Source: a virus
Length of the DNA stretch: 64,000 nucleotides
IMG/VR virus record: IMGVR_UViG_3300028895_000635
Span: 1-64,000 of that record
Reading direction: 5' to 3' (one strand)
The notes under the pieces were generated by a model. It was given only the letters and a program-made list of their open reading frames with translations, made no database searches and was not told where the DNA came from. Shown here in pieces: positions 29,076 through 38,565 of this stretch (within the stretch, counting starts at the first letter, position 1; the number at the start of each line of letters is the position of its first letter). The position numbers were made by a program, and so were the translations under genes.

Positions 29076-30758
29076 TTACAGTGAAAGTCCTAGTCCGCTC
29101 GCTTCGCCCCACTCCGGGAGATCCTCTGCGCTGCCGTCAGCGGGCACGAGCGTTTCGTAGCATCCCATGCAGTACCCTGCGCCTCTGGGCCGTGACCGCT
29201 CCAGGATGTCGTGCCGTATGTACTCATTGAAGTATCCGACCGGGGTGCTGTAGATGTTGTTGCCTACGTCCTGGCCCACAGACCCGTCGAACAGCGTGAA
29301 GTCGCCGCCCGGTGCATCAGTGAAGATGTTGGCCGGCGTTGCCTCTGAGAGGTTCCCCGAGCCACCCAGCACGCTTTGCGCTGTCCCGTCTCCGTCGTCC
29401 ATGTTGTAACCGGCCGTGATCGATGCTGGCGGGCTGCCACTGAAGCTGTAGCAATTGCTACCTATCGCTGAGCTGATATTGTTCTGGGCGTAGAGTACGG
29501 GGATGTCGCTGAAGATCTGCCAGTCGAGGAAGGCCCCAGTGACGTCGTATGCCGTGTTGTTGTAGAACCAGAGACTGACATACGCACCCGACACGCAGTG
29601 GAACACATCAATTCCGATGTCGTAAAACAGGCAGTTGGCGAACGAGATGAAATGTGGCGAAGAGCCCGCGATCAAGTTCAGCCCGTTAGACAAGCCATGG
29701 AACGTGCAGCGATCGAACGCCCAGAACGTGTACGAGTTGCCAGGTGATACACCGTTCGACATGTCCTTGAACTCGATGCCGGTGACGCGGAGGAACTCTC
29801 CATTGCCTTGGCCGTTGACACCGCCGTTATTCACTTGCGTGGCAATGTACGGTGACTCGCCATCTGCCGGCTCAATAAAGGCATTCTGCGACGCCCAAGG
29901 CGCCCCGAACTCCACACCACCAAGGTCGCCACCGCCGTAGCAAATGGCGTACTCGTCGTCTCCACTACCACCGCGCGCAGCTGACCAGGCAGCCAACGTC
30001 GTGTAGTCGCCCACGGTGACGAGGTTCGTAGGCACGTCGTCAGCCAAGGCCATGCCGCTCTGCGAGACGGTCAGCGTGCCAGGAAGCTCATCGTCGTACC
30101 CTACACCGGTGAAGTACCAGGCCAACGAGAGCGTTGCCACCTCGTCCGGAGGCACCGGACTGCCTGCATAGGCGCCGGTGCCGGACAGCTGTGCCCGCTC
30201 ATCTGCGGTGAACACACGGCCCGTGATCTTACACCAGTGGGACATCTTGTTGCCACTGTTGATGTAGTTTGTGTCGCCCTCCTCCCTCCGTCCGAAGTTC
30301 ACGTAGTCAGTGCAGTAGACAGAGACCGGCGCCTGCATGTACGTCTCGTACCACTGCTCCACGCCATCAACGTAGATCCTCGCACGGTAATCGCCGGACA
30401 AGTACTCCACAGTAATGTGCCGCCATCCAGGATTACCGTTGAACGGGGCGGTACCGGTTAGAGTCGTACCGCCACCGAACCCTCCAGTGTCTATATCGAC
30501 TCTTACATTCCCTGCCTGGATGAACACGCTGTCTTCCGGTATCGTGATGGCGAACAGCATCCCGGAACCGCCATCGTTCCACTCCAGCAGCGTTTGGAAA
30601 CCACTGCCGGCGTTGCTGTCCATGAACACCCATCCCGCTATCGCCCAACCATCCTGCGGCAGGTCGAACACCGAGTTCTGGTTCACGCGGACGTACGACG
30701 ATCCACTGAACTCCCAGCTCCGGGCTGCAGGCGTGATTGTCTTGGTTGTGGTTCCCAT
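29076..30758 (-). CDS. LamG-like lectin plus beta-helix virion protein
   Basis: 560 residues. Residues about 13-175 match a concanavalin A/LamG sandwich: SWEFSGSSYVRV, GWAIAGWVFM, WRHITVEYLSGDYRARIYVDG. Residues about 250-510 show short repeated strands with Asn/Gly turns (for example FINCLFYD, WFYNNTAYD, LYAQNNISS) of a right-handed beta-helix. This combination is typical of tail fibres or spikes that bind and sometimes cut polysaccharide. A strong candidate for the host-recognition protein. Confidence 0.72.
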   Translation of the reverse strand: MGTTTKTITPAARSWEFSGSSYVRVNQNSVFDLPQDGWAIAGWVFMDSNAGSGFQTLLEWNDGGSGMLFAITIPEDSVFIQAGNVRVDIDTGGFGGGTTLTGTAPFNGNPGWRHITVEYLSGDYRARIYVDGVEQWYETYMQAPVSVYCTDYVNFGRREEGDTNYINSGNKMSHWCKITGRVFTADERAQLSGTGAYAGSPVPPDEVATLSLAWYFTGVGYDDELPGTLTVSQSGMALADDVPTNLVTVGDYTTLAAWSAARGGSGDDEYAICYGGGDLGGVEFGAPWASQNAFIEPADGESPYIATQVNNGGVNGQGNGEFLRVTGIEFKDMSNGVSPGNSYTFWAFDRCTFHGLSNGLNLIAGSSPHFISFANCLFYDIGIDVFHCVSGAYVSLWFYNNTAYDVTGAFLDWQIFSDIPVLYAQNNISSAIGSNCYSFSGSPPASITAGYNMDDGDGTAQSVLGGSGNLSEATPANIFTDAPGGDFTLFDGSVGQDVGNNIYSTPVGYFNEYIRHDILERSRPRGAGYCMGCYETLVPADGSAEDLPEWGEASGLGLSL

Positions 30759-33620: not shown

Positions 33621-33712
33621 CGTGCCGCTCCTAGAAGGTTCCAATCCGTTGTTCCACGCCACTCACTAGTATGGCGCATCTACACAGGGCTGGCAATGCG
33701 TGTCTGATAGCT

Positions 33713-33737
33713 AAAGAAAAGGCCCCAAAGTGGGGCC
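33713..33737 (-). terminator. rho-independent terminator
   Basis: On the minus strand a GGCCCC/GGGGCC stem with loop ACTTT, then TTTTCTTT. It is 43 bp after the stop of the alpha-CTD-like frame, as expected if that frame is translated. Confidence 0.75.
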
Positions 33738-33779
33738 TAGATTAGTTCAGATGATCGGCTAGCATGGTTGGCTTCTTGC

Positions 33780-33980
33780 TCAGCTGAGCGATAGGCCCAT
33801 GCGCGCCAGTGCCTCGACAACGTATCGACAGCGTGTCTTGCCCATACCGGCTACCTTGCGCAGGCCCGCTTCCGAGTATGACAGAAGCGCGTCGATCGTA
33901 AGGATGCTTGCCTGGTGGAGCACATCTAACGTACGTGGATCCAAACCGTCCAGCGTAAAAACTGGCAGACGCGCCGGATC
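33780..33980 (-). CDS. RNA polymerase alpha C-terminal-domain-like sequence in frame after a TAG stop
   Basis: 66 codons follow directly, in the same frame, the TAG that ends the gene at 33981-34454. The region LDGLDPRTLDVLHQASILT, then TIDALLSYSEAGLRKV, GMGK and VVEALARMGLSL aligns over its whole length with bacterial alpha-CTD, which binds UP-element DNA and activators. The Arg equivalent to E. coli R265 and the helix-hairpin-helix G (MGK) are kept; N268 and K298 are not. There is no ATG, only CTG, TTG or GTG codons. It could be made by amber readthrough as a C-terminal domain or from a non-ATG start. A terminator follows 43 bp after the stop. Confidence 0.6.
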   Translation of the reverse strand, partial: DPARLPVFTLDGLDPRTLDVLHQASILTIDALLSYSEAGLRKVAGMGKTRCRYVVEALARMGLSLS

Positions 33981-34454
33981 CTACTTGTCCGCGGCCATTG
34001 GGTTGTTTAGATATGTGTGAGCGTGAAAATGTCCAGGATCAACGCACACCTCATGCGCATCTGCTGGATAATTAGCCCGCGTCAACAGCTCCAGCAGCCA
34101 GTTATGCATATGGGCTGCCCATACGTTGGTGAATGCTGTAGGACTATCCACGTAGCTGTTCACGGACACGTATACCTGCAACCGTGGCGGCGGTGGCTTG
34201 TCGGCAACACTCATCCGTGTGAACATGTTGACTTTCGGCGCCCAGCACGCACGCGCATCTACGAGCTCGTGTAGAACCAGCTGCAAAGCCTGTTCGTCGA
34301 CCGCGCTGAGCGCAGCTATCATCCGTGACTCGATGTGTGTCAGCGCGCCCAACAGCATCGTACCGACGAACGAGTCGGTAGCCAGCTTCATCTTGCCCGT
34401 AGCTTCGGGCATATCGCCGTCCAGCAGGTCTATAGTCGTCTCGTACTTTTCCAT
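33981..34454 (-). CDS. small helical/beta protein, first of a paralogue group; ends in readthrough-prone TAG
   Basis: 157 residues. An N-terminal negatively charged segment leads into a long helix (LLGALTHIESRMIAAL), a V-rich strand pair (LQVYVSVNSYV), and a second helix near the end. This order resembles the proteins at 34546, 35586, 36171 and 36896. An AAAGGAGG site precedes the ATG. The stop is TAG followed by an in-frame alpha-CTD-like sequence, so the natural product could be 224 residues. Upstream leader carries dyad box copy 4. Confidence 0.6.
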   Translation of the reverse strand: MEKYETTIDLLDGDMPEATGKMKLATDSFVGTMLLGALTHIESRMIAALSAVDEQALQLVLHELVDARACWAPKVNMFTRMSVADKPPPPRLQVYVSVNSYVDSPTAFTNVWAAHMHNWLLELLTRANYPADAHEVCVDPGHFHAHTYLNNPMAADK

Positions 34455-34460
34455 CCTATC

Positions 34461-34534
34461 CTCCTTTCAAATCTTGTTCATGTGATCAAAAAGAAGGGCG
34501 CCCGAAGGCGCCCCAGGTCAAAGGTCACCAGGCA
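34461..34534. repeat. duplicated regulatory module, first copy (terminator, dyad box copy 4, leader)
   Basis: Nearly identical to 34916-34986 except for a 3-bp insertion. Reading the minus strand: GGGCGCC-TTCG-GGCGCCC stem (34496-34514) with a T-run ends the gene at 34546; the dyad box TTGATCACATGAACAA lies at 34474-34489; then comes the leader with AAAGGAGG for the gene at 33981. The terminator and box overlap, so the box starts as transcription of the upstream gene stops. Confidence 0.7.
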
Positions 34535-34545
34535 ACGCCTGCTCG

Positions 34546-34908
34546 TTAGTTGTTGCTTGGATCTGGCCCTCGGTGACAACGCGCCTGTTGAAGTGCACGC
34601 ACGGCAAGCGTTACATACCCTTCTGGGGGTGTTAGCTTGCTGTTGAGCCCACTAAGCATTTCGTGCAGCGTGAAAGCCATGTTACCCAGCATGGCAAGAT
34701 CGTCACTGCTACGGCTCCACACCGTGACTTCCAGCTGCGTATCTGTAAGCTCATCCACAAATACGCGATAGCCATTTTCGTGCGCATGGCACAACGCCTG
34801 CAGTGTGTCCTGCAAGCTCTCGTGATCGTGGTCGGCCAAGCAGTGGACTACCAGCAACAGGAACGCCTCGCGCTGCCGGCTTGACGGACTGAGCGGGTCG
34901 CCGCCCAT
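34546..34908 (-). CDS. small paralogue-group protein
   Basis: 120 residues. REAFLLLVVHCLADHD, then GYRVFVDELTDTQLEVTVWS and a helix ending HEMLSGLN. The same blocks occur in the protein at 36171-36539 (RRAFLLMVINGVLDRD, GYRVHLE, LEVTIWD, YQMLNDLND), so the two are paralogues. No motif of known function. Preceded by a leader with the second regulatory module. Confidence 0.6.
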   Translation of the reverse strand: MGGDPLSPSSRQREAFLLLVVHCLADHDHESLQDTLQALCHAHENGYRVFVDELTDTQLEVTVWSRSSDDLAMLGNMAFTLHEMLSGLNSKLTPPEGYVTLAVRALQQARCHRGPDPSNN

Positions 34909-34915
34909 TGGAAAG

Positions 34916-34986
34916 CTCCTTTCAAATCTTGTTCATGTGATCAAAAAGGGCGCCCGAAGGCGCCCCAGGTCAAAGGTCACCAGGCA
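34916..34986. repeat. duplicated regulatory module, second copy (terminator, dyad box copy 5, leader)
   Basis: On the minus strand: a GGGCGCC-TTCG-GGCGCCC terminator at 34948-34966 with a TTTTT run, then the dyad box at 34929-34944, then TTTGAAAGGAG before the gene at 34908. About 71 bp identical to the first copy. The terminator follows the stop at 34977 by 11 bp. Confidence 0.7.
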
Positions 34987-35585: not shown

Positions 35586-36119
35586 TCAACCGTGCCACTG
35601 CTGTGACACGGCTTGTGGGTCGTTCGGCGCGAGATGATAGCGCTCAACTAGGGACGCCAAGTCCTCATGGGTCGTACGCAAATCCGTACCGCCTTCGGTA
35701 TCTGTCGCGTGGTAGCGTGTGACACTGACCTCATGGCAACGCCCTTGACGATGGACGAAGCGCATCGCATAGGACAGCCAAATGAAGAGATCATCTGTGA
35801 ACTTGGCCCGCTGCGCTGCGCTGAACACGCCAACCGCATCGTTAAAGATCACATAGACCCACACGTCACGGCACAGTACCTCAACGAGAATCTTGGTGCC
35901 ATGGTCGACATCGCCGAACACATCCATGAGCAGCGTCTGCGCACGGGCACTGTCGTCTTGATTGACAGCCTCAATAAATGCATTACGCAGATGCGCGGCG
36001 GACATGCAAAACAGGGTACGCCAAAAGCCATCATCCAGTTCATTCAACGCTGCGCCCGCCGGGTCGATAAAATCGACCTCGCTGGGTGGTGGTCGGTCGT
36101 GAAAATCATCAGACGCCAT
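35586..36119 (-). CDS. paralogue-group-like protein
   Basis: 177 residues. Acidic, Pro-rich start, then the helix RTLFCMSAAHLRNAFIEAV, a strand pair (ILVEVLCRDVWVYVIFND), and a helix (LFIWLSYAMRFV), the same helix-strand-helix order as the other small proteins in this stretch, though without close identity. Leader is the 30-bp repeat. Function unknown. Confidence 0.55.
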   Translation of the reverse strand: MASDDFHDRPPPSEVDFIDPAGAALNELDDGFWRTLFCMSAAHLRNAFIEAVNQDDSARAQTLLMDVFGDVDHGTKILVEVLCRDVWVYVIFNDAVGVFSAAQRAKFTDDLFIWLSYAMRFVHRQGRCHEVSVTRYHATDTEGGTDLRTTHEDLASLVERYHLAPNDPQAVSQQWHG

Positions 36120-36170: not shown

Positions 36171-36539
36171 TCATTCACGAGCGGCAATAAGAGCTGCCGG
36201 AAGCTGTCTGCGCTGCAGCACACGCACATCGATATCATCGAAGCCCTCGGACTCATCGTCCTCGTAGCGCTTGTCGTTGAGGTCGTTGAGCATCTGATAC
36301 ATCTGGATGGCCAGCTTGCACATCTCCTCGAAGTCCCCGTCGTCGCGATCCCAGATCGTGACTTCCAAATGGTTGGCAACGGGTGTCTCCAAGTGTACTC
36401 GATAGCCGGGGGCACAGACCTGACACCGTGTCGACAGCGCGTGCTGCAGCAAACGCACGTCTCGATCGAGCACTCCGTTTATGACCATCAGCAAGAAAGC
36501 TCGGCGATCATTATCCTCCGGGGTGAATTGCTTACACAT
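36171..36539 (-). CDS. small paralogue-group protein
   Basis: 122 residues. Paralogue of the protein at 34546: the RRAFLLM, GYRVHLE and LEVTIWD blocks align over about 85 residues. It has an acidic insert (RYEDDESEGFDDID). A good ribosome-binding site (GAAAGGAAG) precedes the ATG. No known motif. Confidence 0.6.
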   Translation of the reverse strand: MCKQFTPEDNDRRAFLLMVINGVLDRDVRLLQHALSTRCQVCAPGYRVHLETPVANHLEVTIWDRDDGDFEEMCKLAIQMYQMLNDLNDKRYEDDESEGFDDIDVRVLQRRQLPAALIAARE

Positions 36540-36895: not shown

Positions 36896-37258
36896 TTACT
36901 CCCTTGTGACCTCAAGCACGCGCTTCTCAGCGGTCTTGCGGGTGGTGAACAGCACCACGGCATGGATCTTGGCCGGGCACCGTAGGATCAGCTCGTGGAA
37001 CCAGACGGCCACGTTCGAGGCATACGCCTCTGCCAGTGGCTGGTGCTTTCGTGCGACGTCGTCGCCGAAGACGACAACGATTGTCAGCGCGGTAGCGGAA
37101 TACTCGCCACACTCCGACAAACGGGTGTCGAAGCTTCCGGTGGCAAACGTCTCCTCGCCATCGAAGATCACGTCCAGGATGGCATTCAGTGACGGGACGT
37201 GCTGATCCATCAGCGCCTGGGTGGCGGGGATGTTCAGCGAGTCAGATAACTTGTCCAT
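36896..37258 (-). CDS. small hypothetical protein downstream of a dyad box
   Basis: 120 residues. N-terminal helix, then a beta strand pair (SATALTIVVVFGDD), helices, then a KIHAVVLFTTRK strand. The helix-strand-helix order resembles the local paralogue group but without clear identity. The leader has AAAAGGAGG and dyad box copy 6 at 37277-37292, placed 18 bp before the ATG. Function unknown. Confidence 0.55.
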   Translation of the reverse strand: MDKLSDSLNIPATQALMDQHVPSLNAILDVIFDGEETFATGSFDTRLSECGEYSATALTIVVVFGDDVARKHQPLAEAYASNVAVWFHELILRCPAKIHAVVLFTTRKTAEKRVLEVTRE

Positions 37259-38420: not shown

Positions 38421-38491
38421 AGTAAGGTTCCTTGTAAAGAGGGAGGGGTAAGCTACTGGTCCAACATATTAGACTGCCGTGTTTCAGCACT

Positions 38492-38507
38492 TTGTTCACA
38501 TGATCAA
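38492..38507. promoter_or_regulatory. dyad box (copy 9)
   Basis: On the minus strand TTGATCATGTGAACAA, in the spacer between the terminator at 38523 and the zinc-knuckle gene. A TAATAT sequence lies about 20 bp downstream, so it could overlap a promoter here. Confidence 0.45.
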
Positions 38508-38522
38508 GATCGGCTGAGGGCT

Positions 38523-38565
38523 AAAGAAAAGAGGCAGGGCCCTGGGCTTGCGCCCAGAGCCCTGC
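38523..38565 (-). terminator. rho-independent terminator
   Basis: On the minus strand GCAGGGC...GCCCTGC stem with inner GGGC/GCCC pairs, then CTCTTTTCTTT. 19 bp after the stop of the gene at 38584. Confidence 0.75.

Follow-up and report, generated by a model that had tools for sequence, protein, structure and literature searches.

A probable two-domain phage protein with an alphaCTD-like domain, interrupted by an amber codon in one metagenomic virus record

Behind the amber codon at 33983..33981 of the window (the whole 64,000-nucleotide stretch of DNA analysed here, part of a 74,085-bp virus record), 66 codons encoding an alphaCTD-like domain continue the frame of the preceding 157 codons, and in a near-identical genome the amber codon is replaced by a glutamine codon. 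The gene most probably encodes a two-domain, 224-aa phage DNA-binding or transcription accessory protein, truncated in this record by a C-to-T change or a consensus error (probability roughly three in four).

Gene layout and the codon 158 difference

The features on which the original prediction was based (a 157-aa ORF, its TAG stop, 66 in-frame codons and a terminator) were all present and correctly positioned, the gene being on the minus strand. The features are listed below, with G001 denoting the IMG/VR contig IMGVR_UViG_3300017991_000049.

34496..34514 (-), hairpin resembling a terminator, belonging to the preceding gene and inside a 74-bp repeated cassette
34471..34491 (-), copy of the palindromic motif TTTTGATC(A/T)CATGA(A/T)CAAAAT, operator- or promoter-like
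34460..34465 (-), Shine-Dalgarno sequence AGGAGG, preceding the start codon ATG at 34454
34454..33981 (-), ATG-started ORF of 157 codons ending in TAG, the N-terminal part of the 224-aa protein
33983..33981 (-), TAG stop of the window record; CAG (Gln158) in IMGVR_UViG_3300017991_000049
33980..33783 (-), 66 in-frame codons, HhH/alphaCTD-like domain, the C-terminal domain of the intact protein
33782..33780 (-), TGA, where the intact 224-aa frame ends
33710..33738 (-), hairpin (GGCCCC/GGGGCC) resembling an intrinsic terminator, with a T-rich run behind it; the region has a fold z of -2.81
95794-103088 of G001, phage RNA polymerase genes (a fusion of beta with the N-terminal half of beta'; separate C-terminal half of beta')

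As had been claimed, the 66 codons have no ATG close to their beginning; a TTG was present at 33944. The openness of the frame was by itself unremarkable, since at least 66 open codons followed the stop in 42 of 220 ORFs of the parent contig G001, and such stretches are common in this phage probably in large part as a result of close gene packing.

The whole 74-kb record was contained in G001 (226,453 bp), with 37.9 kb aligned at 99.95% and 35.6 kb at 99.97% identity; the two differed also by a 1.57-kb gene present only in G001 and a short gap near the start. Searches with either half of the protein returned a single other locus, in G001, where codon 158 was CAG (Gln) and the ORF ran uninterrupted for 224 aa, all other residues being identical to those in the window. 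The TAG was one of about a dozen substitutions, scattered or clustered, between the two genomes (breakpoint and indel patches excluded), the other genic differences including one synonymous and several missense changes. As about 4.7% of C-to-T or G-to-A changes in G001 genes would create a stop, a single nonsense difference among this number of substitutions was unsurprising and needed no special cause. The CAG in a near-identical genome thus indicates that the TAG of the window arose as a point mutation private to this record, or else is an error of the consensus. The usual allele was judged from two records, the site being covered by one other genome, together with the recognisable domain behind the stop; no diverged orthologue of the 224-aa protein was found, and none of the other 43 contigs of the polymerase group described below encoded a relative of it.

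That the population carries CAG throughout, and that the T is a mistake in the consensus of the record, is possible though somewhat unlikely: the difference is a single base in a metagenome consensus, within a 224-codon gene that is otherwise identical, whereas the other isolated substitutions, synonymous and missense ones among them, resemble ordinary strain variation. Programmed amber readthrough, in which a conserved TAG would let a fraction of ribosomes make a 224-aa fusion and the alphaCTD-like form would be dosed by suppression, had been proposed on account of the recognisable domain lying in open frame right behind the TAG, but is now scarcely credible. The comparison of TAG with sense codons in relatives, suggested together with that proposal, returned CAG in the sole other genome covering the site (one relative, 99.95% identical), so that the TAG is unconserved and may be an error. 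No TAG-reading anticodon was found among the 39 tRNAs of G001, and no suppressor tRNA in the 74-kb record; no stimulating RNA structure was detected 3' of the TAG (z +0.31 relative to shuffled sequence), and AAG-TAG-G is not known as a strong readthrough context. A readthrough switch was rejected on the CAG allele, the lack of 3' structure and the lack of a suppressor tRNA, the readthrough-controlled alphaCTD fusion having in effect been removed by one near-identical genome. Very unlikely, too, is a split gene, in which reinitiation at the TTG at 33944 in the TAG variant would yield a separate 54-aa C-terminal protein; the TTG is in frame, 37 nt past the stop, and profile matches to the domain start at about that residue, but it has no clear Shine-Dalgarno sequence, and the uninterrupted frame of G001 shows that the domain is not usually made as a protein of its own.

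The view that TAG serves this phage as a normal stop, with no general code change, held: it was the commonest stop in G001 (TAG 73, TAA 67 and TGA 62 among 202 ORFs of at least 120 aa), and phage-wide recoding of TAG was rejected on this basis. The 39 tRNA genes of G001 were clustered in its first 35 kb (3162-34479).

Identity of the two domains

The 66 codons had been aligned with the whole bacterial alphaCTD. They do encode a real alphaCTD/HhH-type domain, part of one protein with the preceding 157 codons, but membership of PF03118 was not established. In Pfam, the 66 residues matched HHH_5 (PF14520) at 24.0 bits (E 5.5e-5) and RNA_pol_A_CTD (PF03118) at 22.7 bits (E 8.4e-5; 19.8 bits within the full 224 aa), below the curated cut-offs of 27 and 23.8 bits, respectively. 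The best NCBIfam match was rpoA (24.4 bits, E 1.4e-5), over the C-terminal domain of rpoA only, and the top five NCBIfam families were all polymerase alpha models. A small phage alphaCTD profile, composed of alphaCTD-like domains of related phages and one bacterial RpoA, ranked the window ORF first of 1640 ORFs (E 4.6e-6, with the next at 1.9). Given the Pfam, NCBIfam and phage-profile E-values, the similarity of the domain is not due to chance. A sequence search of solved structures gave bacterial alpha subunits as best matches. The model of the 66 residues had four helices at low confidence (pLDDT 60), and in a PDB fold search with this weak model RNA polymerase alpha accounted for nine of the 11 best matches, cyanobacterial and E. 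coli alphaCTDs being among the top ones, all at E 0.3 and above. The profile check of alphaCTD against HhH was therefore divided, with Pfam no better for alphaCTD, and NCBIfam, the fold search and the phage clade leaning towards it. A match in Rhodococcus phage CoffeeBean (E 0.9, antisense to an annotated gene) was dismissed as chance.

The alphaCTD of E. coli contacts DNA through R265, N268, C269, G296, K298, S299 and E302. In an alignment with alphaCTD, two of these seven positions were kept in the phage domain (Arg 265 and Gly 296), the residues at 268, 269, 298, 299 and 302 being D, V, T, R and Y, respectively. The phage domain resembles bacterial alphaCTD (PF03118) in its length, helix order, conserved Arg and Gly positions and GLSL end, but differs from bacterial alpha in scoring below the family cut-off, in the five changed DNA-contact positions and in having no alpha N-terminal domain. 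Judged by these comparisons, it is a borderline case best called an alphaCTD-like HhH domain; Pfam does not separate alphaCTD from HHH_5. A generic HhH DNA-binding module of the repair or recombination type, with no role in transcription, is a tentative possibility of some weight: HHH_5 scored slightly above RNA_pol_A_CTD in Pfam, and the GLDPRT of the first hairpin is like the canonical GxxPxT, whereas the NCBIfam ranking, the C-terminal GLSLS end and the order of the fold-search matches point to alphaCTD.

For the N-terminal 157 codons, no Pfam, PHROGs or NCBIfam family matched, and the model (alpha-alpha-beta-beta-alpha-beta) was of low confidence (pLDDT 55). An Rpb11/RNA_pol_L-like fold was considered and discarded, there being no profile match and the fold search with the pLDDT-55 model being uninformative. 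Kinship with the small proteins encoded nearby (34546-34908, 35586-36119, 36171-36539 and 36896-37258) was likewise discarded, hhalign detecting none; among these neighbours, only those at 34546 and 36171 were mutually related.

According to the two-domain reading, the intact gene would encode an N-terminal domain (about 145 residues) joined through a short linker to a C-terminal HhH domain with two hairpins, of the alphaCTD type. In the sampled variant, a single C-to-T change on the coding strand (CAG to TAG, codon 158), or an error in the metagenome consensus, would introduce a stop that cuts the protein ahead of its C-terminal domain. We infer DNA binding and a transcription-related role: in the intact protein, the C-terminal domain would most likely bind DNA, or a polymerase, and could keep the N-terminal domain positioned on DNA or on a transcription complex, the partner being the phage polymerase, the host polymerase or neither.

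The phage RNA polymerase and alphaCTD modules in other phages

The phage is a jumbo phage with its own multisubunit RNA polymerase and no detectable alpha. The polymerase of G001 consisted of a 1456-aa protein, in which beta domains precede beta'-N domains, and a separate 629-aa beta'-C protein. The alpha N-terminal assembly domain (PF01000/PF01193; RNA_pol_A_bac, RNA_pol_L) had no match in G001 at E <= 1, RNA_pol_A_bac was found in none of the 21 group contigs searched (G001 and 20 further large ones, nearly all above 100 kb), and the best sigma factor match in G001, at 13 bits, was not convincing. Alpha-less polymerases of this kind have precedents among jumbo phages (PMC7598289), and one branch of tailed phages has been described as having deep multisubunit polymerases (mReC, multisubunit-RNA-polymerase-encoding Caudovirales; PMC7481178); homologues of both beta and beta', one feature of mReC, are encoded in G001. 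The fused polymerase was encoded in 44 IMG/VR contigs, G001 included, the relatives being 48-79% identical. The nearest cultured relative found was Salmonella phage Arash, whose beta gene gp206 aligned with the fused polymerase over 97% of its length at 33% identity, but whose genome has no alphaCTD. The Arash beta protein is the protein most often detected in Arash virions (PMC10585845). As the phage carries a multisubunit RNA polymerase of its own, redirection of the host RNA polymerase, the function originally suggested for the domain, becomes less obvious.

PF03118 matches were obtained in five of the 44 polymerase-group contigs, two of them over the cut-off: G014 (IMGVR_UViG_3300010885_032796) at about 63-65 bits, G035 (IMGVR_UViG_3300031857_000015) with four domains scoring from 58 to 32, the window phage at 22, G023 at 19 and G040 at 17. 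A sixth, partial match (G006, E 0.03) was on a par with the chance matches obtained in the control, a narrow set of 28 T4-like contigs in which no alphaCTD exceeded the cut-off (best E 0.02). The N-terminal parts of the carriers in the group were unrelated. Both G014 and G035 share with the 224-aa protein a C-terminal alphaCTD-type module and membership of the same polymerase group; they differ from it in their N-terminal parts, which are unrelated to its own, and in architecture, G014 having DUF3085 and a better-scoring alphaCTD in 220 aa, and G035 four tandem alphaCTDs in 375 aa (L069:1015-2142; 156 bits in total). In Bacillus phage vB_BmeM-Goe8, a 210-aa protein annotated 'RNA polymerase subunit alpha' (QDP42789.1) similarly joins an unassigned N-terminal part to one C-terminal alphaCTD (residues 147-203, 78 bits), but this is much closer to cellular alphaCTD, and the N-terminal part is again unrelated. 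Goe8 belongs to the Herelleviridae, a family other than that of the window phage; Herelleviridae use the host polymerase. As G014 and Goe8 share this layout, a C-terminal alphaCTD on a phage protein is nothing new, and the 224-aa protein is a divergent example.

An accessory of the phage multisubunit polymerase, whose alphaCTD-like domain would replace the missing alpha by contacting upstream promoter DNA or activators, would fit the presence of beta plus beta'-N and beta'-C in G001 without RNA_pol_A_bac or RNA_pol_L, the lack of RNA_pol_A_bac in the 20 further large contigs and the recurrence of alphaCTD-like domains in the group. Such a role is nevertheless improbable: about 46 kb separate the gene from those of the polymerase, the domain was found in a small minority of the contigs and on unrelated N-terminal parts, the DNA-contact positions are poorly kept, and the same layout occurs in Goe8, a phage of a family that uses the host polymerase. 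More speculative still is the general proposal that alpha-less jumbo phages use small, separate proteins with alphaCTD modules as detachable contacts to upstream DNA or activators, with the 224-aa protein as a divergent member; if this were true, its nonsense loss in some strains would amount to a natural knock-out. What is left is a modest lead, namely that alphaCTD-type modules recur, on small proteins unrelated to one another, in phages with alpha-less polymerases.

Variable loci and repeats in the surrounding sequence

Relative to G001, a 560-aa gene at 29076-30758 had six missense changes within residues 86-138 and one at 363, a density of differences far above the genome average; the gene had no family match, and a diversity-generating retroelement acting on it was rejected, no reverse transcriptase being found in G001. 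The 1.57-kb segment of G001 (153607-155182), with a 467-aa gene for which there was no Pfam match, was absent from the window at 38475-38529. A repeat of about 54 bp, which includes the palindromic motif and a terminator, was present at the edges of this segment, which suggests that it was lost or gained by recombination between the edge repeats. The 74-bp terminator-plus-leader cassette at 34461-34534 of the window was repeated at 34916-34986, upstream of two neighbouring genes. With up to three mismatches allowed, the window had 10 copies of the 21-bp palindrome (6141, 13920, 18475, 32458, 34471, 34926, 37274, 38490, 45111 and 58254), compared with 0 in shuffled sequences. In G001 it was found in 27 places, most of them no more than about 30 nt from a predicted gene start; the palindrome resembles an operator or promoter element of the phage.
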